A stretch of DNA of 64,000 bases from contig JBAMJV010007708.1 in NCBI GenBank assembly GCA_037951105.1, forward strand, positions 1 through 64,000. The letters are read 5' to 3'. The notes beneath the pieces were generated by a model that worked only from the letters and a program-made list of their open reading frames with translations, was not told the DNA's origin and made no database searches. Each line of letters begins with the position of its first letter. The first letter of the stretch is position 1. This DNA comes from Echinarachnius parma. Lineage: Eukaryota > Echinodermata > Echinoidea > Clypeasteroida > Echinarachniidae. Positions 25,317 to 56,964 of the stretch are shown piece after piece. The translations under genes were made by a program, and so were the position numbers.

Positions 25317-28123
25317 GGGCAATTCCGTATGAGAGAAGGCAAAAACACCACATCTCAAAGTTGAGCAATCTTCCCTAAATCAAACTGTTATCGATAGAGG
25401 AAAACTTGAATTTTAGGAAACTGAAAACCATTTGTGTATAGCTCTATTGGTTTTGCAAATATTTCTGCTTGAATTGAACAGAAATTTATGACCTTTTATT
25501 CATAAATCAGCTTCATTTCATGAAAATAAAGTGAATCTTTTAATTCAATGATTGTTTCTGCTCTTTTTCTCATATTTTCCATACAATGTAGCAACAATCA
25601 CAAATTGTAAAGCATGGGCAGTAACTTCAGTGCATTTTTTTTTAAAGAAATTTTTGAAATCTATGCATATTTGATCGTAATTCCGTTACGATAAAACGTA
25701 ATAAGTTTTTCTCAATATCTTATTACTTGTTCTTTAGTCATGTCATTGTGAATTCTCTTCCTTCACCACAGTCCTAAGAACTTCCAACATAATTTTCTGA
25801 AATAATGTCACTACTTTTTCCAAAATTGGCGTAACGGTATTAGTAATTCCGTTACGTAACGGAATTACACGCACATGGTTTGTAAGGTATTGAATGATAT
25901 TGCTGTAAATAATTTTTTTTCTTGTTCTCAATGTAGAAATACCCTTTAAATAGCATGAACTGTAGCCATGTAGACAATAAGTCATTATACAAGTACTGTA
26001 CAATGTTACTTTATGTGACTCATTGTACCCACATGCTTCATATTGCATCAATGGTGATTTAACTAAATTGATACACGATAGATAATTTCTCTAATCTCTC
26101 CATGAACATAATAGAGATGATAATGTTCTATCATTAAATTAGTTTCCAGCAAGAACCACTTGACTGAAATTATGAAGATGCAGCAGATTCATGTTTGTAC
26201 TTTAGAAAGGGAAAAACAAAAACAATACAATTTTATTTTTAATATCCAGTGATTAGTATGACACTGGTGCTACATTTATTTTCTCACATTAATTTACATT
26301 CATGTATTTTAAGATATAAATCATACCTTCAACTTTCAAGGAGATTTAATATTAATAATTTTGTAATTGTATGTAGATTTGAATATCATTGATCAGTTAA
26401 AGGCTCATAACTCATCATTAATTATGTAAATTTGTATTAAACTGAAGCATATAAAATTAAACATAAATACAGAATAGGCTTCAAGATATTCAAAACTAAA
26501 CATAATACAGGCTAAGATACACATGTTTTATTCATTATCATAAAGTCAGAATACATTGAGTGTTCAGTGTGCTTCTGTATGCAGATCAAAGAAGAATGAT
26601 GTACAAAGTATTTGCATTTTCAAATGGGAATTCCTAAAGGTGTCTTTCATTTTTGGCAATTCCATATTTATATTTTATATGCCAACTTTTTGTTTGAGGA
26701 TCATACACGTTTATATCCGATATACATCTATACACGTATTTCATGGAATGGATGAAAATGCATTCCAAATTGATTTGAGAGTAAATTAAGATCAATTTAG
26801 GTTGAATTTATTAAAGAATAATTTTAGAATATAACAAGAGTTCATATAACAAATCTCGATTTTCTTGTAATTCTGTTACGCACACACATAACTTCAGGAT
26901 TTGTTCTGGTCCTTATGTAAGAGCTTGTGATGAACGATGCATACACATTCTTTACTAATGACTTTAAGCAGAAAAGCAGAAAAATGTAACCAAGAAATTG
27001 CATTTTCATGGGTGGATTTCACAGGCGTAATTCCGTTACAGTGACATTCGTTTGTCTTAAGGTAATTTCAGAGGTTAAAAAAGATCATTTCTGGAAAAAA
27101 AGATGTACCAAATTCAAGTTTGTAACTTAAATGATAAGTTTTTATTACCAATGAAGAATTTTTTGTGGTAGCTTTTGCAGAAAATCATTACATACATGTA
27201 GTTAGTGTTGAATGAAAGACCCCTTTCCGTTATGATTGTATTTTGGTCTCTGGACGCTACAGTGTTATAGATATGTAACAATCTTTGGTTCTGTTGTACA
27301 TGTACCTCTAGTACCCCTGCCAGTTATTAAAGTTTTAAAAACTGTGAAAGTGAAAGGAATTTTAAATATGATTAAGAAAACAGAGCTAAATATCACTTAT
27401 TTGTCATTCTGTAACAGTGGAATTACCCATTCACAATGCATTTCCATTCACACAGATTTCCAATATTCAGGAAGTTTACGAGGCTTTTAAGCATTGAAAG
27501 TTGAATGATTTGACCTGTTTGTGATTTGTAATTGTTTAAATGTTGCTTGATATTGATTATGTGCAGTTATTTAGCATGTCACATAATGTAGTACATTTTT
27601 TTTCACAATTTAACCATTTTTCTTGAAGTAAAGGAAAAATTCTAAAATGTTGCTTTTTTTTTCTTCAAATATGGTTATTTATTGTAACTTTCAGAGATGT
27701 AATTCCGTTACAAATTTGTGTAATTCCGTTACAGGTGGTCTTTTTTCAAAAAAGTGAATTTGTGAACTTATCATTGTGTTGTTTATGCACGTACTTGTTC
27801 CAAAATGAACTTGACATTATCAAGATAGAAAAAATACATAAAATCAGTTTCAAAGTGTCTTATATTTCAGAGAAACTCAACGCAAACTTGTAGCAACAAA
27901 AAAACTCCATTCTCCGGTAATTCCGTTACGGTCACACATATTGGTCTAGTGTGCAACAACACATGGAAGATATAAAACCATTTCCCTATCATGTTGTAGC
28001 CTGGTTACCCGTGCAACTTATATAAGTATCAAAATTTACTTAAGTCATGAGAATATTGCGCAGGGAATGAAATAATGAGCAAAAAACGTCTCTGAATGTA
28101 ATTCCGTTATGGTGGAATTGCCC
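25317..28123. mobile_element. P3: TIR element with dispersed GTAATTCCGTTAC motif
   Basis: 2.8 kb bounded by inverted GGGCAATTCC (25317-25326) and GGAATTGCCC (28114-28123). The motif GTAATTCCGTTAC or its reverse complement occurs near 25678, 25831 (degenerate), 25843, 25856 (reverse), 26867 (one change), 27027, 27411 (expanded), 27699, 27720, 27917 and 28098 (one change). The last copy lies three bases inside the right TIR. The first 360 bases from the left TIR contain none. No exact target duplication is visible (ATGT left, TGTT right, only TGT shared). There is no transposase frame, so it is non-autonomous. Boundaries are less certain than for P4 and P5. Confidence 0.65.
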
Positions 28124-28135
28124 TGTTACATGTAC

Positions 28136-29540
28136 CTTCAATCTCTCCTCCCCTCTCTCCTTTTATGATAATTTACATACTTTCAAAGGTATTCTTGTCA
28201 ATGGTTGATGTTCTAGCAATCTGTCACAGGTCATCTCCCCCTCCCTCTTTCCAGCTACCCTCTTCCTTCCTATCACTTTTCCATTTCTCATTTTCCCCCC
28301 ATAACTTGACACTGTTCCGGTCAATTTCTCCTCTCTCCTTTTATAATAATTTACATTCTTTTAAAGGTATCCTTGTCAATGTGTGATGTTCTCGCAATCT
28401 GTCACAGGTCATCTCACTCTCCCTCTCCTCCTCTGTCCTTTTATAATAATTAACATATTTTTAGCTCATCCGGCCCGAAGGGCATGATGAGCTTATGCCA
28501 TGCCGTGGCGTCCGGCGTCCGTCCGTCCTTCCTTCCGTCCGTCCGTCCGTCCGTCCGTCCGTCCGTCCGTCCACAGTTTTCAAAATGCTTCTTCTTCGTT
28601 ATTTTTCAACCGATTTTGATTCTGATTGTTTCATAAGATAGGGCTAGGAGGGGGATTTAAAACTTCTACACAGAATCGTGAAATTCATTATCTATGGTAA
28701 TTTATGCAAATTTATTCGAAATCACAAAAAATGCTTCTTCTCCTTCATTTCTCGACCGATTTTGATTTGGTTTGCTTTATCTGGTAGAGCTAACTTTGGT
28801 ACACTAAACTTCTACACAGAATTTTGAAATTTTTCTCCATTCATTAATTATGGTAATTTTTAATTTTTCAATTTTTTATTTTTTTATTTTTTTTATTTTA
28901 TTTTTATTTTTATTTTTTTTGTTTTGTTTTGTTTTATTTTTTTATTTTTTTAATTGTTTTTTTATTTTTTATTTTTTTATGAATTAATTAATTAATTTTT
29001 TTTTTTTTAAATTTTTTTATTAATTAATTAATTATTATTTTTTTTTTTTTTAAATTTATTTATTATTATTATTTTTTTTTTAAATTTATTTATTATTATT
29101 ATTTTTTTTCCCCATGTACCTTCCGGGGCGTCAAATTTATATTTTTTTCACTCTAATTTTTAATTTTTTTATTTTTATGTCCCTTCCAGGGCATCAAATT
29201 TTTATTTTTTGACCAGTTGAAAAGTGTACCACATGAAATTTGCGATATTTGATGTTGCGAGATGGCAGATGAGCGCTACGTCATTGACGTTCTGGTTAAA
29301 GGTATCCTTGTCAATGTTTGAAATAATAGCAGTCTGTCACAGGTCATCTCCCCCTCCCTCTTTCCAGCTACCTCTTCCTTCCTATCATTATAATGTCCTT
29401 TTCTCATTTTTTCCCCATAACTTGTCACTTGTCGATCTCCCCTCCTCTCTCCTTTTACAATACATGTTTTTAAAGACATCTTTAAGTTTAAAGACTTGTC
29501 ACTGTTTGATGTTCTAGCAATCAGTCAGGGTAATCAGCCG
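28136..29540. repeat. Minisatellite of about 175 bp, split by an insertion
   Basis: Units contain CCTCTCTCCTTTTATAATAA, AAAGGTATCCTTGTCAATG and CTGTCACAGGTCATCTC. Two and a half copies lie before 28461 and two after 29290. The unit is interrupted by the GTCC-rich element at 28461-29290. Confidence 0.7.
28461..29290 (+). mobile_element. GTCC-rich interspersed repeat (AGCTCATCCGG family)
   Basis: It begins TTAGCTCATCCGGCCCGAAG, has a short inverted GATGAGCTTATGCCATG, then a (GTCC)n tract at 28505-28572, and ends near GGCAGATGAGC then GCTACGTCATTGACGTTCTG. From memory, repeats with this start and a CGTCCGTCC tract are abundant in marine invertebrate genomes. I cannot assign it to a superfamily. 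Its 28860-29190 section is degenerate T-rich low-complexity DNA. Confidence 0.6.
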
Positions 29541-30088
29541 TGAACTGTTTGTCTTTTTGAGGAGTCGGAAATTGTTACGACTTGAGTCTTCCTCGTTTTT
29601 CAGCATTTCTTTCAGGCTTTTCCCTGAAGGCTTTTTTTCCTCCTTTTTTTTGGTTGATGGCACAAATTATTCATGCTCGAATCATTGGTTGTCACTCGTC
29701 ATTCCAGGCTGCCATGAATTATTAATACATGTATAAGCACACGACTGATTACATGATTAAATGCAATTCTCAGAGTGCAGTTCCATCGTGTGTATGTGTG
29801 TGTTTTCATTTCTAAAATATTCCTTTTTTAATTAGTTGATTGAAAATCTATCAAACTCGTCAAAGTGCCTACATAATTTGTTTTTTATTAATATTTCTCT
29901 TGAGCTTGAATACTACTAATTTATGTTTTTTGTAGGTCTACAGCATGTCACATTAGAGAAGATTGAATATATATAATTAATACGTTTTGGTTTTTACTAG
30001 AGCATCATGACTCTTTTAGTCATCAAAAGATAATTGGCTATATACTTGTCTGCAAGGAGTCGACTTACTCGGTCGTAATTCAATATCT
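29541..30088. other. No feature seen
   Basis: AT-rich unique-looking sequence without a supported frame or repeat. Confidence 0.4.
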
Positions 30089-30090
30089 TA

Positions 30091-30470
30091 AAGGGACTTA
30101 GTAACATTGTCCAAATCCTCAAAATAAATTTTTCATTCTAGTGGTTCCCTCATACCTTGTTGTATTCGTATTAACAATAAAATCATGGGACAGGTTTCGG
30201 TTTTTCAAATTTGCCTTTCGTTACAAAGATATGTACGATCGAAGTATTCAGATAAGAAAAACTCCGGGCAAGTTTTTCTTCTGTGTACAAAGTGAGTAGA
30301 GTGAGTTATTGAATATCACTTTGCATTTTCGCTCATTACTTGGCCATGCAATGTCCATTTGACTTGATATTTTCACACAATACCCTGTGGACATATGAGA
30401 TAACAATAATATACATTGCATCAACCATTCATCACTTTTTGCACATGTCAACAAAGTTACTAGATCCCTT
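30091..30470. mobile_element. TA-target MITE, second family
   Basis: The ends AAGGGACTTAGTAACATTGT and ACAAAGTTACTAGATCCCTT form an imperfect TIR flanked by TA on both sides. It is 380 bp and non-coding. Related copies are at 61236-61451 (left part) and 41323-41572 (worn), and possibly around 23922-24690. Confidence 0.7.
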
Positions 30471-30539
30471 TAATTAGATCACGCATCTGTCCTGTTGTCA
30501 TGGACTGGCAAGTTGCTATGTGTATGAATTAAAGATTGT

Positions 30540-30736: not shown

Positions 30737-30737
30737 T

Positions 30738-31470: not shown

Positions 31471-32872
31471 TTTTCAATTCAATTTTGGTTTATTAAAATA
31501 CTGAGTAAAAAGTCCGAAGACTAAACATGTCAGTTTACAACATTTGGAAATATAACAAAGTAAACACATTTAGTATGTACTGTACAAAATAAATAATGAG
31601 TTATCACCTCGCCAAAAATGTACTAAAAAATTAAACAAATAAAACATTCATTTAGAGATATTCAATATATTACTGTATAATCATAAAAAACCATCATAAT
31701 AAAACAAAGTACTGAGTGAGATAATGCAAGGTCCTACCAAATTAAAGGAGAAAATTATGAAAGTATGAATCTCTTTAAAGTTAAACAATCAATACCAACA
31801 ACTAAAATAATGAGTATTATAATTTTAAAATGTGATCTCTAAAATCTGAAAGGTGATATAGTTAAAACTTCCAAGCAATCAAATACATAAACTGACTTAA
31901 GTTTAAGTAAAAATACTAAAAACAAAATACATTAATGAATGAAGCAAATCATGTATTTAAAACAAAACATGATAAAAATCATTTTACAGATTGGCAAATT
32001 AAATTATTATATTGCTAATGAGGGCATTATAAATTCAAAATCAAATCGTAGATATAATATTGAAAGTAATTTTACCATGCAATAGTGAAATATTAAGAAA
32101 TTTTACTGTTAACTGAAACATTAACCAGAAATGAGCTAATATATAAATTAATCACATAAAATTGCAGACATCTATACATGTGAGGTATCAAGGATTAAGA
32201 AATAAAAAAGAAATCAAAATTAATACGGCCTTCTTTAATCAACATATAATATTTATCAATTAGTGAGATGTGAATGTTCACAATAATACAACAGGAGCAA
32301 CTTAAAGGGCCCATACTAACACATTGAATTCAAGAGTTTTATGAAGTAAGGAATGGGAGAGAGCATGCGTCTTTGGGTCCGTATACGAGGTAATGTTATA
32401 TGTTCAGAGTTCCGGAGATTGCGACCTATGATTATTTCTCTACTTTGCGGCAAGAGATGGCGATGGTCAGGAGAGGTAAGGACCGCTTTGGCAAATTTGG
32501 TTGCTAGTTGGAGACGCCTATTGCTAAGGGATTCAAGTTTTAAAGACTCTAGGAGTTCACTATATGGTAGTAAGTTGGGGTAAACGATAATCCTCAAAGC
32601 TCGCTTCTGGATACGTTCAATGTTTTCAGCCTGAGCTTTGGTGATACCAGAAGTCCAGACGGGAGCCGCAAATTCAATTTCAGTCGTCTGAGCAGCGTCG
32701 TTGGCTAATACCAGAAATAATATCGGCCCCAAACGTGTTCCCTGCGGCACTCCACAAGTGATGGAATTCTCCTGGGAGGTTGTTCCATGGTAGCAGACAG
32801 TTTGTGATCTCTGAGACAAGAAGCTACATAAGGTAGGGATGATAGAGCGATCTACTCCTAACCCATGGCACT
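31471..32872 (-). mobile_element. LINE remnant, 3' half with intact tail
   Basis: Minus strand: a partial RT frame (see 32316-32872), about 840 bp of 3' UTR, then AATAAA followed by a TTGAATTGAAAAA-type tail ending near 31471. The same tail type ends the LINE at 61562, so the two belong to related families. Upstream it is cut by the MITE at 32874-33323. Confidence 0.65.
32316..32872 (-). pseudogene. LINE RT with catalytic box deleted
   Basis: Reads GVDRSIIPTLCSFLSQ, then CGVPQGTRLGPILFLVLAND, then jumps directly to FAAPVWTSGITKAQ and ERIQKRALRII. The segment that should carry the FADD catalytic motif and the thumb is missing in frame, so no active polymerase can be made. The frame upstream of 32872 (to 32981) belongs to the inserted MITE. 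Confidence 0.75.
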
Positions 32873-32873
32873 T

Positions 32874-33323
32874 AAAGGACCTATAGCGTCTAGATGGCCT
32901 AATTTTCACAATTCGGCTCTCTATATGTAATTTTTCCTGAAGAAAAAGAATTTGGCAGTCATTTCTCATGAAATTGATCAATTTTGGGGTAATTAGTAAA
33001 TATCTAATTGTCCTGGGAACGCCCCTTTTAAATCGCCAAAATGTGACGTCATCTAAAGTACGGACTAATGAACTAAATTCTGTAGATGACGCGTCATGAC
33101 GTAAGCCAATGAATTGTCAATGACATGTCAATCACGCTGCCGATTCTGGACCCTAAATGTGGGTGGGGCGTAAACTGGCTGCTAAATGAGATTTGGCATC
33201 AGAAAATTAGTCTTAAATCATACTGTGTTTATTTTCATGGATTTTTTTTTCGGCAGACCTATTTTACAAGTCATCAACTATGAAATAAGTGCCAAAGTAT
33301 GTTGTATTCTTTAGGTCCTTTAA
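32874..33323. mobile_element. MITE inserted in LINE
   Basis: The ends TTAAAGGACCTATAGCG and TTTAGGTCCTTTAA form a TIR of about 12 bases around 450 bp of non-coding DNA. Insertion into the LINE coding strand truncates its frame. Confidence 0.6.
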
Positions 33324-34459: not shown

Positions 34460-36271
34460 GGGCAATTCCAAGGTAACAGCGTGACGGTAGGAGGGTGTTT
34501 CTCACGATGAAAGTCTAAATAACTCACAAAATAAAAATGTCCAGAACCAAATTTTGATATGCATCTGTTCCCACTATCCTAACAATTATTTACAATAGGA
34601 AAGAAAATCAAAATTCCAACTAAATTATGAATTATGAATATCAATATCTGCGGTAACAGCGTGACGGCAAAAAGACATGGGTTTCTTACATGGTAAGAAA
34701 CTAAGCAAACTCTGTGAACTACAGGAACATTTTGCAATTTTGTCACATTGATTCTTTGTACTAGACATCAAGCAAGAACATCCAAATAAAAATGTAGAAA
34801 AAATCCAATGTTCATAGTAAATATGATATCATAAACGTATCTGTGCACGGTAACAGCGTGACGGTAACAGCGTGACCTCTGAATTGTACATGTTATATAT
34901 ATGGGAGATATTGATGAGATGAATAAGATTATATAATTTTGATGTAGTCATCCAGAATCTATACAGAACTAGATGAATGGGTAATATAACCCAGATGCTC
35001 TGAAATGATGGTTCGCATGACACAAATTTGCAGCCTAGCGCCCTCTATTGATCAAAAATGTTTTTGGACAAAACTGAAATTCTTATCTTTTTCAGAATTT
35101 AGTTTGAGGAACCATCAAATATCAAACCCCAAATACAAACTTAATTGCAACAATGAAATATTAGACCTTTGACATCTGACCTTTGACCTTATTTCTCAAA
35201 TTAGCATACAAATGTTTAATTTTTATGTCGGCACAGTGCATATCTACAAGTGATTTGTTACATGTAACATGATTTCAATGTCAGTAAGTTTTTGTGTTTG
35301 AATTGGTAATTATCCGACTGACCTTTGACCTGTGCTCCAAACATTTTCATAGAATTTTCTTTTATCTACAGTACTCTTTCTAACATTAATTCTGGCATTT
35401 TTTTGTGAGATAAAAAATAAACTACAATAATTTGACCTGTTGACCTTTGACCCCATGACCAAATTCTATAATCAGGTCATCTACTTCACTGAACGCATAC
35501 CAGTATTAATTATCATGTCATCCTTCAAGGATTCTTGAAATATCTTGAGAATAATATATTTTTTGCATATTAATTAGCTGTGACCTTTGACCTTTGACCT
35601 CATGGCCCCAAAATGTATCAGATAATCCATACCTCTGAATACATGTCTTGTACAAAGTTTGAACAGAATCCATCCAACGATTCTTCAGATATTGCACAAA
35701 AAAAGTAGGTTGCGTCACGCTGTTACCCAAAAAGTAACAGCGTGACCAAATTGATATTGCTTAGATTTATTAGTGGTAAAAGATAATGCTGCTATTTAGC
35801 ATCCATAATATAGCTATATGGGTGAATGAAGAAGAAACAAAAAATAATTTCATTCCCATTCATATTTTTCCAGAAATATTAAAAATACCTGTTTTTAGGG
35901 TAACAGCGTGACATATAGATGACTATAAATGAAACAGTCACTGAAGCAGAACAAAGAGCGAAAATGCTGAAATAGATATTTATCTGATAAATTGAAGTAA
36001 TGTTCTTACCAACACTGAAAGAAAATGTTATGAAAACCTATTTTTGCAGCTCTTTTAAGCTTAATATTTACAAGTATATTTTGTGAAAATAATTGAAAAT
36101 TAATTTATGCTAATTAATTCCTATGAAATAATAGTTTACGGCAAATTTTTTTTTGAACAAAATGCATTTCTGAATAGTTTGATCTTTAAGCTTTAATTTG
36201 ATACCAAATATGTTATGATTCGACGAAATTGAAAAATGGGTGCTTATGTCAATGTTTGCTTGGAATTGCCC
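34460..36271. mobile_element. P4: TIR element with dispersed GTAACAGCGTGAC motif
   Basis: 1812 bp, perfect 13-bp TIRs GGGCAATTCCAAG (34460-34472) and CTTGGAATTGCCC (36259-36271), exact 4-bp target duplication TTCT on both sides. GTAACAGCGTGAC occurs at 34473, 34653, 34850, 34864, 35734 and 35900, and in reverse at 35714. The first copy directly abuts the left TIR; the outer 359 bases at the right end have none. No open frame of note. It lies inside the copia 3' UTR, so its boundaries are supported by host element context. Superfamily unassigned: 4-bp TSD plus GGGC ends does not match a family I can name with confidence. Confidence 0.85.
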
Positions 36272-36552: not shown

Positions 36553-38556
36553 TCAAGAGTGAAAGTAGTCCTTTGGTAGTTGACCATTGTGCATCCACTC
36601 CAGAAGCTCTCCACTGTCCGCACCTCTCTTGGTCAGGCAGTTGGCAAGTTGCAGCGCGCTTGGAAGCCACTCAATGGCTTGTAGATCTCCAGCCGTGAGC
36701 ATCCTCTGTATCTCGGCGATGTTGATTCTCAGCCGCTTTTCATGGACTTGTTTGGTAGAGTGTAGACTCTGATGGAGAGATTTGTTGTCGGTGTACACGA
36801 TGATAGGGATGTTGTTCTCCATGAGTTTGTTGTTGTACACCTCTGTGATCAGGCTGCCCAGATACACAGCATCATCTAAGGCATCTTGCATCGCCAGGGT
36901 TTCTGCAGCCAGTGTGCTCGAAACTTTTCTCTTGATTTTGTTTGATGTCCAGCTGAGAGGGCAACTTCTGCCATTTTCTCCACACAGGAAGATCACGTGG
37001 CCTTGAGCACTTGACACACCATCAGGAAGATTGCCCCAGGATGCATCGCAGTACACTACTATCTTCCATCTCTCAGATGGTCCAAGACTGGGGAACAGTA
37101 ATCCTCCTGTACTGTTTTTTGCATGTCGTACAGCCTTGTTTGCTTTGAGTAGTTGATCAACCGTGGGATGGTTGCGGGACATGTTAAGTTCAAGTGCATC
37201 ATAGCTGAGATCGGGTCGTGTCTGGGTAGCTATCCAGTTCAGTTGACCAGCAGTAGCTCTGAGGCTCTCCATTTCCTTCTTGGTCAACGTGGAAGATTTT
37301 TCCGTTTTCCGTTTTTGACTGATTGGAATTTCTTTCAGCTCATCCTCATAGTCATTTTGCTTGATTCTGATTCCTGCATCATCCTGAGAGATTTCCAATC
37401 CAACATATTGGAAATTGCTGACCTGCCTTTTTCCAACCTTGTACTTCAGTGCCAGTGGGTCAATGACTTGTTTCATGAAGGCATCTGTTCCAGCAAACAG
37501 GAAGTCATCAACATGCATCACAAAGACACCTTGCATCTCTCCATCTTTGTACCATCTGAATAATGCTTTATCCAGCTGTGATTGTCTGCATCCTAGGTTC
37601 ACCAGTTCATCTCGTACGCTGAAATACCAGTTGCGAGATGCATCGTCCAGTCCATAGGCTGCTTTGTTCAATTTCCACAGAATGCCTTCTTGTCTGACGT
37701 CATCAGGCGGTATCAGGAAGATGTCTCTTTGGATCTTGTTACCCTGAAGGAAAGCAGCCTTGATGTCTATGCTCTCACAAATCCATCCTTCACTAGCAGC
37801 AATGGCTATTGCAGTTCTCAGGGTAGATTTTGAGGCTGTTGGGGAATCTGATGGCACCTTGTCCTGCTCCTCAAAGCCACGCACCACCAATCTAGCCTTC
37901 ACACGCTTTTGCCTATCAGGCATGGCTTTCTCAGATATCACCCATCTCGTAGATAATGTTGGCTGTCCATTGTCCGACGCTTCGTGGTAGACGTCAAAGT
38001 CATTCCAATTTTGAAGCTCTGTTTGTTTGGCCTCAATAACTTCAGGCATGTCATGATGAGTCACTGGAATAAAGACCACATTAGCTTCTTCTCCCTCATC
38101 TTTGTCACCGTTTTCTTCATTGACCTTTTTGTCTGGCTCTGGAAACCGTTCAAATTGAACTTGATCAAGATATACACCAATTTTCTTGTTGTCTGTCTCA
38201 TTGACCACATTGATGTAGTACTTGTTTCTACCTGAGGCTTTCCCACCTTTGCTAAGTACTCGAGCTGGTATCCAGCCTTCTGTCTCAGAAATTCTGTACT
38301 GGATCCTTGCATTCACTGGTGGCATTTCTATCTTCTTCCTTTCATCTCTTGAAGATTCATCACACTGAATGGAACCTGGATTATGCCCCTCATCAGCCAT
38401 ACCATGATCATCATTTTGGTCATCAAAGTCTGCATCTTGATTAGTGACCGTTTCATCCCTCTCCTCTGGAACTGTGATTCTGTCTGTTTCGTCTCCATCC
38501 ATTGGCTGAGGAGTTTCTTTTTGTTCATTGCTCTTTGGATTTGAGTCGCCCATCAT
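36553..38556 (-). CDS. Copia ORF2: reverse transcriptase and RNase H (667 aa)
   Basis: After an acidic N-terminal stretch (1-110) comes the copia-type RT: RWVISEK (about 205), ARLVVRGFEE (about 225), SIDIKAAFLQG (about 265), then the catalytic FVMHVDDFLFAG (about 349). RNase H follows with YCDASWG (about 500), LAAETLAM (about 556) and YTDNKSL (about 589), ending in the LTKRGADSGELL signature. It starts MMGDSNPK inside the end of ORF1 (32-base overlap, +1 frame relative to it). Expression may be by +1 frameshift or by reinitiation at the double ATG. No stops interrupt it. Confidence 0.9.
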   Translation of the reverse strand: MMGDSNPKSNEQKETPQPMDGDETDRITVPEERDETVTNQDADFDDQNDDHGMADEGHNPGSIQCDESSRDERKKIEMPPVNARIQYRISETEGWIPARVLSKGGKASGRNKYYINVVNETDNKKIGVYLDQVQFERFPEPDKKVNEENGDKDEGEEANVVFIPVTHHDMPEVIEAKQTELQNWNDFDVYHEASDNGQPTLSTRWVISEKAMPDRQKRVKARLVVRGFEEQDKVPSDSPTASKSTLRTAIAIAASEGWICESIDIKAAFLQGNKIQRDIFLIPPDDVRQEGILWKLNKAAYGLDDASRNWYFSVRDELVNLGCRQSQLDKALFRWYKDGEMQGVFVMHVDDFLFAGTDAFMKQVIDPLALKYKVGKRQVSNFQYVGLEISQDDAGIRIKQNDYEDELKEIPISQKRKTEKSSTLTKKEMESLRATAGQLNWIATQTRPDLSYDALELNMSRNHPTVDQLLKANKAVRHAKNSTGGLLFPSLGPSERWKIVVYCDASWGNLPDGVSSAQGHVIFLCGENGRSCPLSWTSNKIKRKVSSTLAAETLAMQDALDDAVYLGSLITEVYNNKLMENNIPIIVYTDNKSLHQSLHSTKQVHEKRLRINIAEIQRMLTAGDLQAIEWLPSALQLANCLTKRGADSGELLEWMHNGQLPKDYFHS

Positions 38557-40984
38557 GTGCTGTCCTTATCACCCTGCATGTTGCCACACGCACCACCTTA
38601 CTCCCATGTCTGATGAAGACAATCTTTCCATCTTGCCCGATCACTTTTCCTGGTCCCCTCCATCTATTGCTGTCGTCTCGTTTGTAGAACACAGATTCAC
38701 CAGACTGAAGGTGAATTTCTGGGACTCTAATGTTGTGACGTAGGGCCCTTCGAATTCGTTCTGATGCTTCAGCTTGGGCATATGCCCTTCTCGCAGCATG
38801 GAGGGCATTCAGATGTCTGGACACACTTTCACTTGCTTGCACATTCTCAAGAGCAGGGGGTACACTAGTCATGACAGACGGGAGATTTGGGTTGGTTCCA
38901 AGGACCAGCTGGATTGGACTGTATCCATTGTGATTCTGCATACTGTTCTTGGCATTCACAGCCCAGGCGAGAGCAACATCTACACTCATGTGAGGGTCAT
39001 CTTCCAGCATCTTCTGTACACACACATCAACAACATGATGATTCCTTTCACAGATGCCATTTGACCATGGGGAGTATGCAGCAGTGGAACATATTTCAAC
39101 ATTGAATTGCTCTGCCATTTCTCTATATTCCTCATTGTCAAACTCCCCTCCATTGTCGACAAGGAATCTTTTGGGGGCTCCAAATCCAGCACCAATCCAC
39201 TCTGTCGCTACATTGTCTATGATCATCTTTGGCATTTTCCGTCTGATCACCTTACTCTTGCAGAACCTTGTGAACAGATCGATGAAGTGCAGGAAGTATA
39301 CATCTCCAAACTTCGTCAGGTCCATTGCAACCACATCATTGAATTGCCTTGCCATGGGCATGGATACTGCAGGACGGGGCGGAGTCTTCTTGTACCTCAA
39401 ACAGACTTCACAGCTGCTGCTGATTTCATCAATCAAAGACGAAGTATCTTCATCCAAGGCATCTTTCATGAGAGCGTCCTTCATGATGGCCTTCAAATTT
39501 CTAGCTGCAGGGTGAGCAAACTGGCGATGAAGCTTCAGAACCATCTTTTTCTTTTCTTCGTGTGATTTGTGTTCCATGACAATATTCACCCTTTCAAGTG
39601 GCATCTCACATGCATTCATAGGCAGGTAATAGTGACCAGATGTCGTGGTGTCCAGTTCCAGCTTCTTTCCATGTACTTCCAGAGTATCATCTGCCATGTT
39701 CAGCTTGAAACCCAACCGCTTCATGTCTGGTTTGCTGAGGAGCAATGGAATGTCACTGTCAATCACATCTGTCACAACAACTGTCTCTTGTCCGGCTATC
39801 TTACACGGAAACTCCATGCGTTCATCCGATGTTACTGTCTTCTCTCCACCAAATTTGAACTTGGTATTACTTGGAGTGAGTTTCACCCTTTTCTTTTCAG
39901 CATATGTGAGGGATGCCAGATACATTTCTTTCCATGCCCTTCCAGTCACAGTCTTTGTGCAGGCACTGTCCAGTATGGCTGCATGAGCTGCCTCTGTCAT
40001 GAGAACTTGTTTGTCTTCATTCGAGTAGTCTTGTACCTTGAATGCCTCTTCTTTATCAGCCTTCAGTACCTGTTCTTTCCCATTGTCATGTGGACAATCT
40101 TGTCTGAAGTGCATGGTCGATTCGCACACATGGCATCTTAAGTACCGTCCTTCGCCATCACGGGGGTTCCTGTGGTCCGCAGGACTTCTACCTCCTCCAG
40201 GGGCACCACGATCTCTCCCATAGTCGTTCCTTTTCGTTCCTCTGTAACCCCTACCACTGCCTGTAGTATTTCTAGGGGCTTGTCCCCTCCTGCCACCTCG
40301 GAAGCGATATCCCCTACTGGAATAACCTCTGCTTCGTGCATAGTATGCTTCTTCAGATTCTGTTTGGAAAGGCACATCTGTCTCTGTATGAAATGCCTCT
40401 TCCTTGAAGTGACTCTTCTGCGACATGGCTTGCTCACCATAGAACTTTCTCATTGCCTGCTTCATCTGTTCATACATATCTTTCTTTGAGTAGTCAACTG
40501 CTGTCAAGACGATTTGCTTATCTTTCTTGTCGATTCCTGTACAGTCCAGTAGCTGCATGGCCAGTACAACGTCTGGAAGGTCTATCCGCTCTTTCTTTAG
40601 CTCCTTGACTTTCCTTTCATAGCTGTTCATGAAGTCTTCCATGCTTTCATCATCCTTTTTCTGCAGATTTTTGTATGAACACCAAGCATCACAGACAACA
40701 CTGAGGTCATCTTTCTTGAACCATCTGTCAAGTACTGAGAAGATCTGGCTTACTGCATCATCTTCATCTATCTTGATTTCACCATTTTGCATGGCCAGGC
40801 GAACCTTTTCATTCACTCCCTTCTCTGCAGGCAAGACACTGTACAACAGGAAGCCCTGTCTCTTCTTCTCTGCCTTGGTAAACTGAGTCCACAAGTTCAC
40901 ATCAAACTGCCAGTCCTCATAGGAAGTTGTGTTTATCTTCCACACCGGCGGGGCCATCACATTATGCTTGTCTTTGTCAGCCAT
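38525..40984 (-). CDS. Copia ORF1: Gag, protease, integrase (819 aa)
   Basis: Gag-like N-terminus (SYEDWQFDVNLW near 16, a common copia gag pattern), an RG-rich region, a CCHC knuckle (CHVCESTMHFRQDC, about 283), protease with active DSA (AILDSACTKTVTG, about 338), integrase zinc domain (HRQFAHPAARN to CEVCLRYKK, about 485-530) and a catalytic core with MDLTKFGD (about 553), DNGGEFDNEE (about 611) and NGICERNH (about 645). Integrase precedes RT, which defines Ty1/copia. Copia elements usually use one frame; here it ends before RT, with ORF2 in the +1 frame. The Met at 40984 lies 37 bases inside the primer binding site. Confidence 0.9.
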   Translation of the reverse strand: MADKDKHNVMAPPVWKINTTSYEDWQFDVNLWTQFTKAEKKRQGFLLYSVLPAEKGVNEKVRLAMQNGEIKIDEDDAVSQIFSVLDRWFKKDDLSVVCDAWCSYKNLQKKDDESMEDFMNSYERKVKELKKERIDLPDVVLAMQLLDCTGIDKKDKQIVLTAVDYSKKDMYEQMKQAMRKFYGEQAMSQKSHFKEEAFHTETDVPFQTESEEAYYARSRGYSSRGYRFRGGRRGQAPRNTTGSGRGYRGTKRNDYGRDRGAPGGGRSPADHRNPRDGEGRYLRCHVCESTMHFRQDCPHDNGKEQVLKADKEEAFKVQDYSNEDKQVLMTEAAHAAILDSACTKTVTGRAWKEMYLASLTYAEKKRVKLTPSNTKFKFGGEKTVTSDERMEFPCKIAGQETVVVTDVIDSDIPLLLSKPDMKRLGFKLNMADDTLEVHGKKLELDTTTSGHYYLPMNACEMPLERVNIVMEHKSHEEKKKMVLKLHRQFAHPAARNLKAIMKDALMKDALDEDTSSLIDEISSSCEVCLRYKKTPPRPAVSMPMARQFNDVVAMDLTKFGDVYFLHFIDLFTRFCKSKVIRRKMPKMIIDNVATEWIGAGFGAPKRFLVDNGGEFDNEEYREMAEQFNVEICSTAAYSPWSNGICERNHHVVDVCVQKMLEDDPHMSVDVALAWAVNAKNSMQNHNGYSPIQLVLGTNPNLPSVMTSVPPALENVQASESVSRHLNALHAARRAYAQAEASERIRRALRHNIRVPEIHLQSGESVFYKRDDSNRWRGPGKVIGQDGKIVFIRHGSKVVRVATCRVIRTAHDGRLKSKEQ

Positions 40985-41036
40985 TCTATCTGTGGATCTG
41001 TTCCCTTTCTTTGAGAAACTTCTCGCTCTGCTACCA

Positions 41037-41296
41037 TGATAGACTAGGAATCATTGGCTAACATAAAGCCCCACCAGGTATCTGTATATAACAGAAATAC
41101 AAACATAACATAAATAATCTAATTGATATTAAAGGGCATCAAGCGTGGGGATGCTACATAGCGGGTCGCCATTTTGAACTGGGTTAGTTTGCGCGCACCG
41201 CATGACACTGAGCTAACGTGCATTACGCACCGTGCGCAACGCGCATGCAAGATGGCGCCGCGCATCTCATTTGACGAATCTGAACTACCTTTAACA
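41037..41296 (-). repeat. Copia 5' LTR interrupted by a MITE
   Basis: 41037-41131 matches the 3' LTR; after a 160-bp MITE the final TAACA resumes at 41292-41296, followed by CACTG. Confidence 0.72.
41132..41291. mobile_element. 160-bp MITE in the copia LTR
   Basis: AAGGGCATCAAG to CTACCTT, inserted at a TA that is duplicated (41130-41131 and 41292-41293). Removing it restores the LTR end and reveals the copia target duplication. It is related to 30540-30736. Confidence 0.65.
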
Positions 41297-46515: not shown

Positions 46516-49500
46516 ATGTGCGAGGTGAGCAAGAAGGCGCGCCAAGGCCTCATGGCTCTCTCCGTGGTCATCCTCATCGTTGCCCTGCTGGCCTGGTACT
46601 ACGTGACCCAGCATGGCCGCATGGCCGTCCACCACATGGGGCCTGTTAGCTTCCACCCTGAGAACCACCATCTGTACATCACTAATGCAAGTAAACAGGT
46701 AAGAAAAAATTACCCCCATATGCCTAAAATGAATCCCTAAATGTTGCAGATGTGTCCAATCAATTGTTGTCATCTTTGAACTCCTTGTATGATGCAATGA
46801 GACCCAACATGGCCGCATGGCCGTACACCACATGGGACCTGTAAGCTTCCATCCTGAGAACCACCCATCACATCACTAATGCAAGTAAACAGGTTAGAAA
46901 ATTACCCCCTAAAAATGAATCCCCAAATGTTGCAGATGTGTCCAATCAGTTGTTGTCATCTTTGTCGCGCTGGCTGGTACAGTGTACTACATGACCAAAC
47001 ATGGCCGTAGACCACTCAGTAACTGTTAGATTCTACCCGGAGAACCACCATCTGTACATCACCAACGCGAGTAAACAGGTTAGGAAATTACCCTTCCCTC
47101 ACCAAATGCCTAAAGTATGAAGATCTATAAGACACAAAAGTAGAAAATAACCCAGTGATTTAGCCTTTTCAAACATGGGATCATGATAATTTTAGGCTGT
47201 GAATGCAAGTTACTGTCTTGGTCATTCTAATAGGATTTATTGGTGCAAAGTATGTTAGTGCAAGTAAATCCAACATTATCACAATCAAGATTTTATGAGA
47301 AATGTAATCCACATTCCTCGAAATACTTTTAGATCACAGGTCGGCCATGTCTGCAATGGTTTCATGAATCAAACTAATTAATGAATGATTAATGAATGTA
47401 AAATTACAAACTTTTCCTCATCTATTTCCCCATGTCTGGTCCAGGTGGTGCTGAAGGCTCGGCTGGGTATCTCTCTCCCATACCCTATCTATCCTCTGGA
47501 CTGCACGGCCCAGTTCCAGCAGACCAACACCATATGCATCAAGTACATGGACCAGGAGACCCCGAGCAATGTGGACAAGGAGTATGCCAGAATGGAAATC
47601 AGGCTGAAGCCTCGGGAGGACAACCTGCAGTGCGTTGTGATAGAGTGGACGTCACTCCTAATGGACTACTCCCCACTTGACTGTCTATCATTGTCAGACA
47701 CGCACTGGTACGGTGGGGCGAGCCTTTACCGCCAGTTGTGGCCCGTGGACGGGATCTCCATACCCATGCAGCCATACACGGCACAGGACGTCCTGTTCAA
47801 ACCGGGGAAACAGGATGTCTGGGGTTCTGTCCTTGAGAACTATTGGTTGTCTTCCAGAGGTGTGGCAGTTCACGTTGACGAGGATGTGCCCCTCCATGTA
47901 GGCTTCAACGAGGACTCCTCCCGAGAGCTGTGCTTCAAGTCAGAGTACCTCAATTCGCCCTACCAGAATCCCAGTCTGAAGTACCCTAGCATGAGATACA
48001 CTGTCTGTGTCAGTGACAATATCAAGACGGTGCACCAGCATGCTCACCCCAAGTGGTTCTCCAAGCCATCTGGTGTACCTGATGAGAGGATGATCAAGTC
48101 ACCCATCTGGTCAACCTGGGCTCGCTTCAAGGCTACAGTTAACGAGACACAGGTGATGCGGTATGCTGATGATATCTTGCAGTTCAACCTCTCCAACAGC
48201 CAGATAGAAATAGATGACATTTACACCACCTCCTATGGAGCTTTCGATTTCAACAGCACAAAGTTTCCAGATGCTGCAGGCATGACACGTGAACTGAAAG
48301 CAAAAGGATTTAGAGTCACCTCATGGTTCCACCCTTTTGTAAATGTGGAATCGCCAAATTTCAAGAAAGGTATTGATGGGAGGTACTTTTTGAAAGATGT
48401 GAGTAACTCTGTGCCCGCTCTTGTGAAGTGGTGGCGGGGTGATGGAGGTATCTTGGATGTAACGGACAACACCTCGCGCCAGTGGTACATAAGCAACCTT
48501 GAGTCCATGCGGACAGAGTACGGCTTGGACTCCTTCAAGTTCGACGCGGGTGAGGCCACTTTCATTCCCATCACCTTCAATGCGACGTCCCAACAGTTCT
48601 GGAATCCCAACGACTACTGCACTGTGTACGCAGAGCTCGTCGCCAGGATGGGCAGCATGATTGAGGTCCGTTGTGGACACGCGACGCAGGCCCTCCCGAT
48701 CTTTGTCCGAATGTTCGACAAAGACTCCGTGTGGCACTACGACAATGGCCTCCAGACGATGATTCCCTCGGCCCTGACCCAGGGGCTTCTGGGGTACCCT
48801 TTCATCCTGCCGGATATGATCGGTGGCAACGCCTACGGAGGAGACGCTGGGTTCGAGAACCTTGAGTGGCTCCCCGATCGAGAGCTTTTCATCCGGTGGA
48901 TGCAGTTGACTGCTTATCTCCCAGCCATGCAGTTCTCGATCGCTCCTTGGCAGTATGACGATGGGGACGACCCAGAAGGCATCTCCACAGTGACGGTTGC
49001 CAAGGAGATGATTCGCATCCACGAGGAAGAAGTCACACCTCTGCTGCTGAAGTATGCCCAGGAAGCAGTAGCCAAAGGTAGGATATGTGTTTTGTTAATA
49101 TAATTTATAGCTGGTCCCAAAAATACTCAGGTTAGTGTTTGAAATGTGTATTATTTACAAAATCATATATCAAATCTTCATTGGGTTAACCAAGTCCTAT
49201 TTCATAAAAAGAGAACCAGTTTTACCAGAACTAAATCCTTAGAATCTTAAAGGTGGATCTGTATTTAAACATTACTTTCATGCTTAATCTATTCCATTTC
49301 CCCCCTCCCATGATAGGGAAATTCCTTCAAATCTACCCCCCCCCCCCCCCATTTTTCTGTTAAATTTAGATTACCAGAATTGAGATTTAATGATCAAGTG
49401 AAAGAACTGTCAAGCTAGCAAATTTTTGTAATTTACACACACCCGAAGTAGTGAGTCTTCATGTTCATTTCCCCCACTCCTTTATAACCTATCAAGTAGA

Positions 49501-52500
49501 CATTCTAGAGAATTCAATTTATTTTGTCCATAATGCGAATGAACATACAGTTGTCCCCCCCTTTATTCTCTACCCCGATGCTCAATTCTAGAGGGAAAGA
49601 TTTAAGCAACACAAGTTCAGAAAAGACTGAGATTCGTGAGATATGAGGATTGTACATCACATGTAAATTGACACCTTGCTGTGTCGGGATTGGTAAAGCT
49701 GGAATAAATCAAAATCAAGAGTCCTCTTCAGCTTTCTGAAATATGAAATCAGATACGGCCATCAGCATGAACCGTAACAAATGGGGACCGTTCATGAATT
49801 TATATGTGGATTCGAGTCGTGTTGTATGCCTCTCTGTACAGTGCTAAGCATTCACACAGTTGAATTCAGCAGGAATTTTTTTTGAAGCTACAAATCTAGG
49901 GGTAAAATGGGGAAAGCAGGCATCCCTTTAGGCCATGAAAAATAAATGGTTGGATTGGCGTATCCCGCCCGATCCTAAAAATACCACCCGACCCTAAAGG
50001 TTTTTTCAGATTTTTAATTTAATTTTTAATTTTTTTCAAAAAATGTTGCAATATGTGTTATTTGTGTGTTATATGTGTGTTTGTGTGTATTTGTGCGAAT
50101 CCTGAAAAAAAGAAGAAAAAAAAACAAAACCTACCTACCTACCCTAATGTTTGGTTGCCCGTTACTCCAATCCAACAATTTTGTTTGGGGGGCCTTAGCT
50201 TTTAAAAGATGAAAGCAGATAAGAAAATAAGAACAAATCACAAAAAAGGGGAACGTTTGTGAATATATGGATTCAAATCGCATGCCTCTGTACATTTGGG
50301 AGCATTCAAACAATTGGTGTTGGCAGGAATTTTTTTTTTAATTGTAGTAACTGCCAGAAAGTCTGCGTAGATCTTGTTTTTGGAGCTAGTGGGTAAAATG
50401 GGGGAAAGCAGGCATCGACTCTTTAGCTTTCAAAAAGATGAAATCAAATAAGCCTCAAAGCATGTATTGAATGGGGGATCGATATGGATTCAAGTCACGT
50501 TGCATGCCTCTGTACATTTGGGAACGTTCACACAGTTGGTATCTGCAGTTTTTTGTTGTTATGCTGTTACTGACAGAGAGATAAACATCCCTTATTTTGT
50601 TTGTCTGCATCTTGTTTTTGGAACTAGGGGTACCATGGGGATACCGATAGGCCATGAAAGATGAAATGTGATAAGGAAATCAGCATTATACATGTAATAC
50701 AAAAATGAGGATCGTTCAGGAGTGGATTCAAATCACGTTGCATGCCTCTGTACAGTGCTGAGAACATGTATGAAGGGATTTTTGTTTAATTATTGCTACT
50801 ACTGTCTGAAAGATGAAAGACTTTGTATGTCTGCATCCTTTGTAAATTTTTACCAAGTCAGTGCCTGATAAATCGCACTTACTGCCCCTCAGCATTGAAC
50901 AACGAGCAATACGCGCGCTATTGTTAGTGTGCATTCAGCTGTGTGCCGAGAGAATAGGCATGGTTGTTTGATGATAAGACGGGCAGTAAGTGCGATTTAT
51001 CAGGCACTGACTTGGTAAAAATTGACAAAAATGGGAATCTGACATGGTCTCACTCAGAGCGCCCTAAAACAAAAACTACACGACCAAAATTACTGTTCTT
51101 GGTATCGTTTTTCATTGGAAAAGATACCCTATCCGATGGACATAATCATTTTGTTACTTTATTTTGGGAAGTGCCCCGTTCCGTTTTTTGGGGGCCACCC
51201 TGTATATTTGAATTACACCAGTTTATATTGACTCTTTAAAAAAAGGTTTTCAATCCAATCATGTATTATATAATTTATGAATACACCGTTGAATGTATTG
51301 GTCATATAAATTCTTAATATAAATACTCCCTTTGTCTTTATGATATTGTACATGTATACCCTGAACATATACATTAGGGCTCGACACTAGCACTTGCCCG
51401 CTTGCCCAGGGCAAGTAAAAATTGGTGTCGGGCAAGTAAAATTTCATAAATTGTTTAGTTTGCTTGCCCGATCGGTCGACTAAATAATTGTTCAACTACA
51501 AGAGAACACATGTGTTAATCTCATCTAGGAGTAAGAGGGCAAGTTGATTTTATAATGGGGCAAGTAAAATGTCCACATGTATGATTTTACTTGCCCGAAT
51601 GGGCCAGTACAGACAAAAGTTAGTGTGGAGGCTTGTATACATGTAGCCAGTAACTGAAGAGTCTCCAAAGAGGAAACAGCTGGTTAAACAGATCTATCTA
51701 AACCTTATATATTTACTGATTTAGATTAATGGAAGATGCTGACAGGTCCTCTGAACTCTGAAATCTATTAATTAATTGTTATTCTAGCTATTAGTTTGAT
51801 GTCTCCATTGTTGCATTGTTGCTAGGCAATAGTAAACAATTTACTGAGAAAAGTGATGAACCAGGCGTGATGATTTTAGCTTTCAGTATATTACATTTAG
51901 TGAATTTGTTAAGTTGTTTTACGAAGCAGAGCATGATGAATTTGTCTTTAAGAGCATTCTGCTAATTAATGCAATTGGTTAAATTTGTTCTTTGTATCTG
52001 CTGAGCATCTGTAGCAAGCAAATTAAAACAATGAATTGGTTCATTATTAATTCAACGAGCAAAATGCAACCAAAACAAGTTCCACGAGCATGAGCATCGA
52101 AAAGTGTGTCATAAGTCGAAGTACTGCTATACAAGAACTTTGTGGCTCAATGGTTGGAGCACCTGTTTATCAATCTGGAGGTCTCGGGTTCAATTCCTGG
52201 ATGAAGCACATTTACATTAAATTGATATAATTCTGGTCAGTTTCCTGTTTATTTGAACTTTGTTGATTCTAAATGAGGACATAATCAGAGGAGACTTTAA
52301 CCACGCGACATATTCACCGTACCATTTGTTCTTTTCACAAACACTTTCTCTGATTACCATAGCCCTCAATTATTAATTGCATTAAGATTTGTATTAAAAA
52401 AATCATTTAGTAACTTTTCTACTTTTGTATTAAAGTGATACCTGTAAAGTGTCAGATATTGCACAAAATGACATTTGAGACTTCAATCCTATATCAATAT

Positions 52501-53309: not shown

Positions 53310-53326
53310 GGGTCCTTTAGTGAGAT

Positions 53327-54975: not shown

Positions 54976-56189
54976 CCACCTTGGCACATTCATTAATACG
55001 TTACAACTCAACATAATAATGTTCAATGGCTCAGTACTAAGTGAGATATAGAACAAAATTACTTGTCTTCTTCTTATCTTTGCTGGATTTATTGCTATCA
55101 TTTGTCTTGACATACATGTATATGGATGGAAAACAGAATACCGCTTGCTCATTTCTTTCAGAATCCAGCCTCAAGCACTCTGTTAAAGATATTGACAAAT
55201 TTATTTATTTATTTATGTGATTGTGTGACATATTATTTTGTATAGTATGGCCAAAATATCCCAAAGGCATTCCATGGGTTTCTTTCCACATGTACATCTA
55301 GATAGCAATATCCAAGAAAGGCAATATTTGTTTGTTAGGCCATAATTAGCACAACACTTCTGTTTATACAAAAACATGATTTAATGATTGAATATTAAGT
55401 TCACTGTGCTCCTGTAAAGTGTATACATTTCTGGCAAAAGCAAAATCATTAAAATTTACTTACTTATGACAACATTATGCCTTTGTTGTAAGTATTTTGA
55501 TGTGTTATATTTGTGAAGCAGCTGTTAATAATTCTCTTGAGATTTTCACATCGTCACAAAGATTTTATTTTTCAATCAATAAATATGATTGAATTTGTTT
55601 ATAATTTATGGATTTTATATTCTTTACTTGTGAATACTGTGTCAATGAACACATTAATGAAAATGTATTTTGCAATTATTTCTAGTAGCCATGTGGCCAA
55701 TTTCGTCATTTGTATTTCAAGGGAAAAAATAATGTTGTCTACGTAAGAGTAATGTATTCTGATAAATGTTGCCACTGTCATTTTAAATCTGTCAACCTTG
55801 TGTCAAATGTGAATTATGCACTGTATTTAATCATGCAGTTGATGTAAAAAAATACTCCCATGAATATGTAATCCCTTACAAAATGATAGAGATTATCCAA
55901 TGGATATTTATTATTGTATTTGTACCATTTTCTCCCAGGGAGATGAAAGGACAAATGTATCCACTTTACTATGAACTATATTAAATTTAAAACATTTTAT
56001 ATATGATGTACGTATGAGAAACCATGGGCATATGAACAATTTGTTCCCCTATTTTTCTTTTCACACAACAAATGTGAACAGTGAATCATGTAATGTACTC
56101 TAAATAAACATCCAATTTATATATCAAAATATAGCCATGAACATATAATCCCTTAGAAAAAATAAGGCAAATCCAATTGATATTTTAGT
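54976..56189. other. No feature seen
   Basis: AT-rich, unique-looking; it probably includes the 3' flank of gene B. Several AATAAA-like signals occur but none is decisive. Confidence 0.35.
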
Positions 56190-56193
56190 ATGT

Positions 56194-56960
56194 GGGCCAT
56201 TCTTTGAAAAGTGAAACTTTTTCGGAAAAATTGAAGTTTTATTTTTCTGTAGTTTTGTTCCATTTTTGGAATGATCCATGTGTAAAGTTTCATGAAATAC
56301 ATGATTTGAAGTTTAAAATGAAACTTTTTTACTCATTTGCATAAATTTACATATTTCAATATTTTTCTAATAATCTTAATTCAGAAAATAATCAAGATAT
56401 CAAAAGGAAATTAGCAAGCTCATTCTTCTCACTTTTCTGTACAGGTTGATACCAACTTTGTAAAAATTCAACCTTTCATTCTTTTCTAAACCCGATATTA
56501 TAAAATTACCATTTTTCCACTCATATTGTACATGTCACACACGTGACCACCCCAAAATGTCACACACGTGACCAGACGTTGCCACATAATTAAGTACTAT
56601 AAAAAACAACGGTTTGATATAATTCTCATTCATTGCTATTGTTGTACTTACAAATGTATAGTACTTCTCTGGTAATAAGATGAACATTATAGCTTTTCAT
56701 ATTTTAAAGAATTTTCCAAATGAAATTTAGTTATGAAAAAAGCGCTCCGTGCGAAGTCACACACGTGACCCATGCCATTTGACCTCTGACATTGAGTTAC
56801 GTAATCCTTATAAAATCTTTTGTGTTAAGTTTGAAAGACTACAACATATTCAAGTCACATATGAAGTAAAAATCATTATAGTCTCACACTTACTGAAATA
56901 TAAGCATCCCATTTCAAAATTTGTCATGTTTTGGGTCACACACGTGACCAAGAATGGCCC
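56194..56960. mobile_element. P5: TIR element with dispersed GTCACACACGTGAC motif
   Basis: 767 bp with 11-bp TIRs GGGCCATTCTT (56194-56204) and AAGAATGGCCC (56950-56960), and exact 4-bp ATGT duplications (56190-56193, 56961-56964). GTCACACACGTGAC occurs exactly at 56534, 56559, 56756 and 56935; the last lies one base inside the 11-bp TIR. The outer 340 bases on the left contain none. The motif contains an E-box core CACGTG. No coding frame. Same layout as P3 and P4 but different motif and interior. Confidence 0.85.
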
Positions 56961-56964
56961 ATGT

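Follow-up and report, generated by a model that had tools for sequence, protein, structure and literature searches.

Family-private subterminal motifs on a largely fixed, asymmetric site map in short-tipped transposable elements of Echinarachnius parma

Among DNA transposons, the target-site duplication (TSD) measures 3–4 bp in Academ and 4 bp in Sola, the VANDAL elements of Arabidopsis belong to the Mutator-like elements, and the inter-site spacing of Sleeping Beauty is about 165 bp. Comparisons with described systems are drawn here from four reports (PMC2613891; PMC5735166; PMC8151067; PMC2836005). In CACTA/Spm elements, exemplified by soybean Tgm1 and Tgmt* and by maize En-1, subterminal motifs differ between families and are bound by TNPA-like proteins (PMC2613891). 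In VANDAL elements, the target motifs of VANC proteins are short and non-coding, and they change with the protein between related elements (PMC5735166). The inverted repeat/direct repeat (IR/DR) organization of Sleeping Beauty places an outer and an inner transposase site at each end, and their spacing is important for transposition (PMC8151067). The present analysis concerns three elements, named P3, P4 and P5, in a 64,000-nucleotide stretch of the echinoid Echinarachnius parma (assembly GCA_037951105.1, 1.2 Gb; contig JBAMJV010007708.1, positions 1 to 64,000, forward strand), hereafter the window. Like their relatives elsewhere in the genome, these elements belong to a group with conserved tips of 10 bp and AT-rich 4-bp TSDs. 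Their sites of 13–14 bp follow a largely fixed, asymmetric map, and in each family examined the motif at those sites is private to that family.

The end at which a motif adjoins the terminal inverted repeat (TIR) is called the A end and the opposite one the B end. The tips follow the consensus GGGCNATTCY, with inverted similarity over about 10–20 bp in all three elements. An earlier note, made from the sequence alone, had delimited P3, P4 and P5, and its coordinates and tips are correct (Table 1), as are the exact 4-bp duplications that it gave for P4 and P5. P3 is flanked by ATGT/TGTT, a 3-bp match only and no exact 4-bp TSD; relatives of the same family at loci L010–L012, L014, L018, L019 and L022 have exact ones. 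The interiors are unshared, as that note held: blastn (word size 7, E ≤ 1) found no match linking any of the three. Each element carries its own motif, which reads from the A end GTAACGGAATTAC in P3, GTAACAGCGTGAC in P4 and GTCACGTGTGTGAC in P5, and within the window each exact motif is confined to its own element, again in agreement with the note. Its copy numbers of 11, 7 and 4 stand as exact counts for P4 and P5; for P3, 7 copies are exact, 9 have at most one mismatch, and 11 is reached only at up to three. The copy nearest a TIR indeed lies 3 bases inside it in P3 and P4 and 2 bases in P5. What the earlier note missed is that the site distances are superimposable and that the three motifs have a common layout. 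A lone GGGCAATTCC tip also occurs at 62218–62227 on the reverse strand; its pairings within 8 kb are all without a TSD, and it is either a chance match or a relic.

From the A tip, sites start at 14/195/392/413 bp in P3, 14/194/391/405 in P4 and 13/192/389/414 in P5, giving spacings of 181/197/21, 180/197/14 and 179/197/25, which can be superimposed in all three elements. Sites at the B end lie at 361 and 527 bp in P3 and at 360 and 526 bp in P4, and an inverted copy comes next, at 540 bp in P3 and at 546 bp in P4. A chance origin is rejected on three grounds. For each of the three motifs, 100 dinucleotide shuffles contained zero exact copies. A motif-free scan of the window for any 12-mer recurring after about 180 bp and again after about 197 bp, in either order and with low-complexity words excluded, returned with exact matching only the A ends of P3, P4 and P5; allowing one mismatch added a tandem repeat at 46.6 kb, and 20 control spacings gave no matches. 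Finally, none of 200,000 random placements was as tight as the arrangement observed over eight motif families, each represented by one chosen copy (P3b, the two-site F12 and a looser F7 copy were left out).

At least ten motifs were found in the assembly; the F names are labels coined in this analysis. Read from the A end, the further motifs are GTAACTCGCGTTAC (F4), GTCACTCACGTTAC (F5), GTTACGGGTGTTAC (F7), GTAACTGACGTTAC (F8), GTCACGGACATTAC (F10), GTTACTCACGTTAC (F12) and GTAACGGAAGGAC (F13). Their shared map has sites at about 14, 193, 390 and 405–415 bp from the A tip and at about 360 and 527 bp from the B tip. Among 30 A ends fetched by pattern, 26 have a second site of their own motif (at most one mismatch) at 191–194 bp and one (L050) at 276 bp. 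Over 11 A ends with nine motifs, the first spacing is 166–208 bp, the second 189–201 bp (10 ends) and the third 14–25 bp (9 ends), in a compilation without the F7 copy of L059, the F10 copy of L069, the P5 length variants and the later-found F13. At the B end, which was identified in families other than F4, F10 and F12, six families with different motifs (P3, P4, F5, F7, F8 and F13) have B1 and B2 at 360–375 and 524–542 bp. F13 came to light without the use of its motif, in loci that had been fetched for P3, and shows the same map, with A spacings of 179/197/14. Eight complete nine-site F13 copies from 100 places listed, partial copies being left out, give 179–180/197–198/14/211/179–181/198/625–972/164. 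A tandemly duplicated inner A end recurs in P3, in F13 (L010, 3457 onward) and in one F7 copy (L060); inner tips related to the degenerate one of P3 are present at loci L011, L018 and L022.

Genome-wide counts and the TSDs of tip pairs, along the lines that the earlier note had proposed, support a real transposon group. The assembly contains 11,910 GGGCAATTCC tips, compared with 565 matches to the reversed control. For a generic pattern of the A end, GGGCNATTCN-N2,3-GTNAC-N3,4-NTNAC, there are 3,003 matches and for a narrower one 519, both against 0 in the control; the P3 motif has 6,800 (control 19) and the F13 motif 8,935 (control 44). Positions were examined for the first 100 matches listed per pattern, and the 30 A ends above were fetched from the generic one, among whose 100 listed A ends the P5 motif is the commonest string. 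Within the DNA that was fetched, mostly by motif, there are 39 tip pairs, 33 of them flanked by an exact 4-bp TSD and none by a 5-bp one; of the six without, four involve the inner tip of a larger element, and the other two are L047 and P3 of the window. GTNAC stands at site 1 behind 2,897 of the 11,910 tips (24%; control 7 of 565), whereas about 50% would be expected with one A and one B tip per element. Among the matches listed, 31 inverted tip pairs were sampled blind to motif: site 1 begins with GTNAC in 16 of them and shows ATAAC in 4 others, which are P3 copies. Viral contigs contain 0 matches to the P4 A end.

The claim that architecture is kept while the motif changes is borne out for ten motifs in this genome. 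When 12 elements or part-elements, three of which carry the P3 motif, were compared with the ten motifs, each had 2–10 exact copies of its own, and all 108 off-diagonal cells were zero. Oriented alike, the P3, P4 and P5 motifs prove to be versions of a single GTNAC-N3/4-RTNAC layout. Wholly unrelated motifs are rejected, since nine of the ten share GTNAC-N3/4-NTNAC, subject to a search bias considered below; the right half of F13 is AGGAC instead. Two pairs of motifs are only two bases apart, P3 and F13 (GTAACGGAATTAC and GTAACGGAAGGAC) and F4 and F8 (GTAACTCGCGTTAC and GTAACTGACGTTAC). Global identity over the first 440–450 bp was calculated for all 66 pairs of 12 A ends, 36 being reported (all pairs with F4 or above 0.50). 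Between families it is at most 0.57. F4 has 0.41–0.50 with other families (shuffled 0.41–0.47), except for F4/F8 at 0.51–0.55; other pairs above 0.50 are P3/P3b (0.57), P3b/F7 (0.56), P5/F7 (0.52), P3/F10 and F7/F10 (both 0.51) and P4/F7 (just over 0.50), with the other 30 pairs at most 0.50. P3/F13 and P3b/F13 stand at 0.50, a value without a shuffled comparison. In F4, F8 and P4, AAAAAGACATG directly follows site A2. On account of such short shared blocks beside the sites and of the A-end identities, the families look related, with spacing apparently better kept than sequence.

Table 1. Elements P3, P4 and P5 in the window, with their terminal inverted repeats and motif sites
Feature	Position in window	Strand	Remarks
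Element P3, 2807 bp	25317..28123	-	A end right, B end left; GGGCAATTCC tips at both ends
P3 B-end TIR GGGCAATTCC	25317..25326	+	
P3 site B1	25677..25689	-	361-373 from B tip; 166 to B2
P3 site B2	25843..25855	-	527-539 from B tip
P3 inverted inner B site	25856..25868	+	540-552 from B tip
P3 inner site, one mismatch	26867..26879	-	
P3 inner site	27027..27039	-	376 bp from degenerate inner site at 27403
P3 degenerate inner tip GGGTAATTCC of duplicated A end	27419..27428	-	aligns to P3b A end
P3 site A4	27699..27711	-	413-425 from A tip
P3 site A3	27720..27732	-	392-404 from A tip
P3 site A2	27917..27929	-	195-207 from A tip
P3 site A1, one mismatch	28098..28110	-	14-26 from A tip
P3 A-end TIR GGGCAATTCC	28114..28123	-	
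Element P4, 1812 bp	34460..36271	+	A end left; exact TSD TTCT
P4 A-end TIR	34460..34469	+	
P4 site A1	34473..34485	+	14-26 from A tip
P4 site A2	34653..34665	+	194-206 from A tip
P4 site A3	34850..34862	+	391-403 from A tip
P4 site A4	34864..34876	+	405-417 from A tip
P4 inverted inner B site	35714..35726	-	546-558 from B tip
P4 site B2	35734..35746	+	526-538 from B tip
P4 site B1	35900..35912	+	360-372 from B tip; 166 to B2
P4 B-end TIR	36262..36271	-	
Element P5, 767 bp, miniature inverted-repeat transposable element (MITE)	56194..56960	-	A end right; exact TSD ATGT
P5 B-end TIR GGGCCATTCT	56194..56203	+	
P5 site A4	56534..56547	-	414-427 from A tip
P5 site A3	56559..56572	-	389-402 from A tip
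P5 site A2	56756..56769	-	192-205 from A tip
P5 site A1	56935..56948	-	13-26 from A tip
P5 A-end TIR GGGCCATTCT	56951..56960	-	

The window holds other features as well. A glycosidase gene at 47385–49100 is closest to that of Strongylocentrotus purpuratus (71%), with 63% for Diadema setosum. At 12956–13829, a 287-bp unit is present in three tandem copies, every one of which has a minus-strand gene for tRNA-Ala (AGC), and a 74-bp tandem array of palindromes around GTATAACGCTTATAC occupies 21760–22426. Judged by eye, a long open reading frame (ORF) at 16405–20451 has the look of a Gypsy-type retrotransposon polyprotein (1348 amino acids, aa) and long ORFs at 36553–41050 that of Copia-type ones (841 and 670 aa). 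A similar protein fragment, QFIGLRHDASSTEFSSLVR..., occurs at 32316–33116 and in L057 (3443–3778) and is part of another repeat. The word GGGCAAGTAAAA appears four times, direct or inverted, within 190 bp at 51409–51595, outside P3, P4 and P5.

CACTA/Spm is the nearest known kind of element. Conserved short TIRs, asymmetric ends, and an iterated, family-specific subterminal motif in both orientations are found in both, and in CACTA/Spm, too, motifs of 12–20 bp differ between families of one genome while some common features are kept (PMC2613891). A DNA-binding protein has been proposed there to vary in parallel with the motif (PMC2613891); its counterpart here would be a putative one, as would any small-RNA role of the kind the earlier note had allowed for. 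Unlike CACTA/EnSpm, with its CACTA tips and 3-bp TSD (as in Tgmt*; PMC2613891), the present elements have GGGC tips and a 4-bp TSD. The transposase of CACTA/EnSpm is tnp2 (PF02992); no autonomous copy that might encode one was found here, and no search of the genome aimed at this family was made. The available text on CACTA/Spm describes stem-loop clusters and no fixed steps conserved across differing motifs (PMC2613891). VANDAL elements likewise have short, family-specific motifs in non-coding regions, often as variable tandem repeats rather than at the tip-tied, largely fixed positions seen here (PMC5735166). Sleeping Beauty differs in its TA target and in inverted repeats of about 230 bp (PMC8151067). 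Ginger1 and Ginger2 share the 4-bp TSD but have TGTNR termini and TIRs of about 40–270 bp and 50–180 bp, respectively (PMC2836005), compared with GGGC and about 10–20 bp here. The TTAA target of piggyBac is absent from all 33 exact TSDs. The 4-bp TSD would be compatible with Academ or Sola. The literature searched, which did not extend to Repbase or to the majority of subscription papers, yielded no description of changing motifs on a fixed ruler. At least one of the six exact motif and tip strings occurs in 92 papers; the 20 of these that were listed contain only the 10-base tips and have unrelated titles. To our knowledge, Sleeping Beauty shows no turnover of private motifs at constant spacing. 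Because plant CACTA/Spm and VANDAL/VANC already show motif turnover, the earlier statement that no described superfamily has this pattern went too far; what is unusual is the fixed ruler.

We regard it as rather probable that these elements are non-autonomous members of one large DNA-transposon group, with private codes on a largely fixed map whose sites are bound by a protein supplied in trans. Such a group would move by cut-and-paste. A sequence-specific protein from autonomous relatives would bind the sites, probably as a dimer; it could be an accessory protein resembling the TNPA of CACTA, or the binding could be done by the DNA-binding domain of the transposase itself. A conserved catalytic protein would read the tip and the spaced sites would fold each end into a synaptic complex. 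A transposon-end complex with a probably dimeric protein is suggested by the near-fixed distances from both tips, the site abutting the TIR, the retention of sites in 0.77-kb MITEs and the near-palindromic form of the sites. The spacings, near 166, 180 and 197 bp, are comparable in scale to a single nucleosome, and the range of 164–208 bp hints at chromatin-scale looping. If the specificity of the protein shifted, families in which all sites had shifted would escape cross-mobilisation or titration by relatives, so that the code would turn over while the ruler was kept. What this mechanism leaves unexplained is how all sites come to change in concert. More tentatively, the group may be an undescribed lineage in which a rigid nucleosome-scale ruler is conserved and all sites of an element are rewritten in concert, yielding a natural series of orthogonal specificities, of transposases or of accessory proteins, on one scaffold.

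Several observations weigh against this interpretation. P5 is without sites of its own at the B-end positions, and three of the 30 pattern-fetched A ends (L024, L031 and L040) have only the first site. P3b keeps B1 at 360 bp, with its other B sites inverted at 515, 531 and 548 bp, the second thus at 515. Deviating copies include variants of the P5 type whose sites stand at 13/276/301 or at 13/193/402, the F7 copy of L059 with an insertion (13/699/900), the looser F7 copy (13/221/412/432), the F10 copy of L069, where sites at about 224 and 397 bp are inverted relative to A, and an F13 copy (C78:89847-90435) with spacings of 179/158/14/14. In the case of F4, F5, F7, F8, F10 and F12, the search pattern itself prescribed the layout; therefore, only P3, P4, P5 and F13 are free of this bias. 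Among the matches listed, the remaining 11 of the 31 motif-blind pairs had no searched motif (exact P3 or F13, or the generic A end), and they may carry other motifs or none. Site 1 is likewise without GTNAC in a class of 2,010–2,024 bp at C5:58369, C10:330973, C13:24772 and C65:11158 and 55998. Thus the earlier idea of a private motif per element holds for the 12 elements and ten motifs compared, and cannot be claimed for each element. Among ORFs of at least 60–100 aa in P3 and P3b elements and further loci, inspection by eye found no transposase of this group, and the fetched loci yielded no autonomous copy or binding protein, so that the autonomous relatives with a DNA-binding transposase sought at the suggestion of the earlier note did not emerge. 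Long elements bounded by such tips do exist, among them C21:25419-30881 (5.5 kb) and C61:114291-118410 (4.1 kb).

Antisense to the A orientation, the P3b elements (L015–L017, L020 and L056–L058) contain the remnant of an ORF, about 200 aa long, the only candidate seen here for a VANDAL/VANC-like protein. It has at least 157 matches at E ≤ 0.001 (150 of 1,422 candidates scored), and nearly all full-length copies among the matches listed have an in-frame TGA. No Pfam family matched it at the cut-off, and no homologue was found at E ≤ 0.001 among 56 candidates. A search for P5-type B ends (two P5 motifs 162–172 bp apart) gave 31 matches, against 0 in the control; as parents these were rejected, for in the 80 bases of each compared they look like shortened A ends. 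At L040 (G000:C48:137395, plus strand), the 3' end of an ORF for a C2H2 zinc-finger protein of 444 aa is 195 bp away from an F7-like A tip. It was considered as a gene of an autonomous copy; within 6.4 kb there is neither another motif copy nor a B tip. The locus may be a relative that carries a gene, or the tip may be a relic next to a gene of the host.

The map could instead be mere inheritance from a common ancestor, its sites being passive repeats that no protein reads as a code and that gene conversion keeps uniform inside each element. The block shared by F4, F8 and P4 after A2, the P3/P3b, P3b/F7 and F4/F8 identities above the shuffled level, and the recurring duplicated inner A ends agree with this idea. 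It nevertheless appears very unlikely, as the sequence between the sites is, for most pairs of families, hardly more similar than shuffled sequence although the spacing differs by only a few bases, and passive repeats would be expected to drift in sequence and spacing together. More improbable still is that host transcription factors, for example E-box or bZIP-like ones, bind the sites, each family having captured a different factor for its expression. Dimeric factors prefer near-palindromic motifs such as these, and the P5 motif contains CACGTG, a common E-box core. A promoter would not need the near-fixed tip distances of sites in P5-type MITEs, however, nor one site 2–3 bp from the TIR, and the exact P3, P4 and P5 motifs never occur outside their elements in the window.

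Anti-silencing of the VANC type, in which an element-encoded protein clears repressive chromatin from its own family, would make the array one site per nucleosome or linker rather than part of a transpososome. VANC21 does bind a short non-coding motif, targets vary between related VANDAL elements (PMC5735166), and spacings of 166–197 bp are nucleosome-like. The explanation is nonetheless unlikely. VANC targets are often variable tandem repeats (PMC5735166), while the positions here are largely fixed relative to the tips; together with the site abutting the TIR, those distances point to a cutting complex. The favoured reading remains that of non-autonomous elements whose ends would be assembled by a protein acting in trans.

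For elements such as CACTA and VANDAL, the question is open how a multi-site recognition code can change at all copies together, and here at least ten codes stand on one scaffold in one genome. Since near-neighbour motifs are two bases apart (P3/F13 and F4/F8), intermediates can be sought directly. Should the binding proteins be found, they would make up a graded series of proteins that recognise DNA. Through the fixed spacing, it can also be tested whether nucleosomes are measured by eukaryotic transpososomes.

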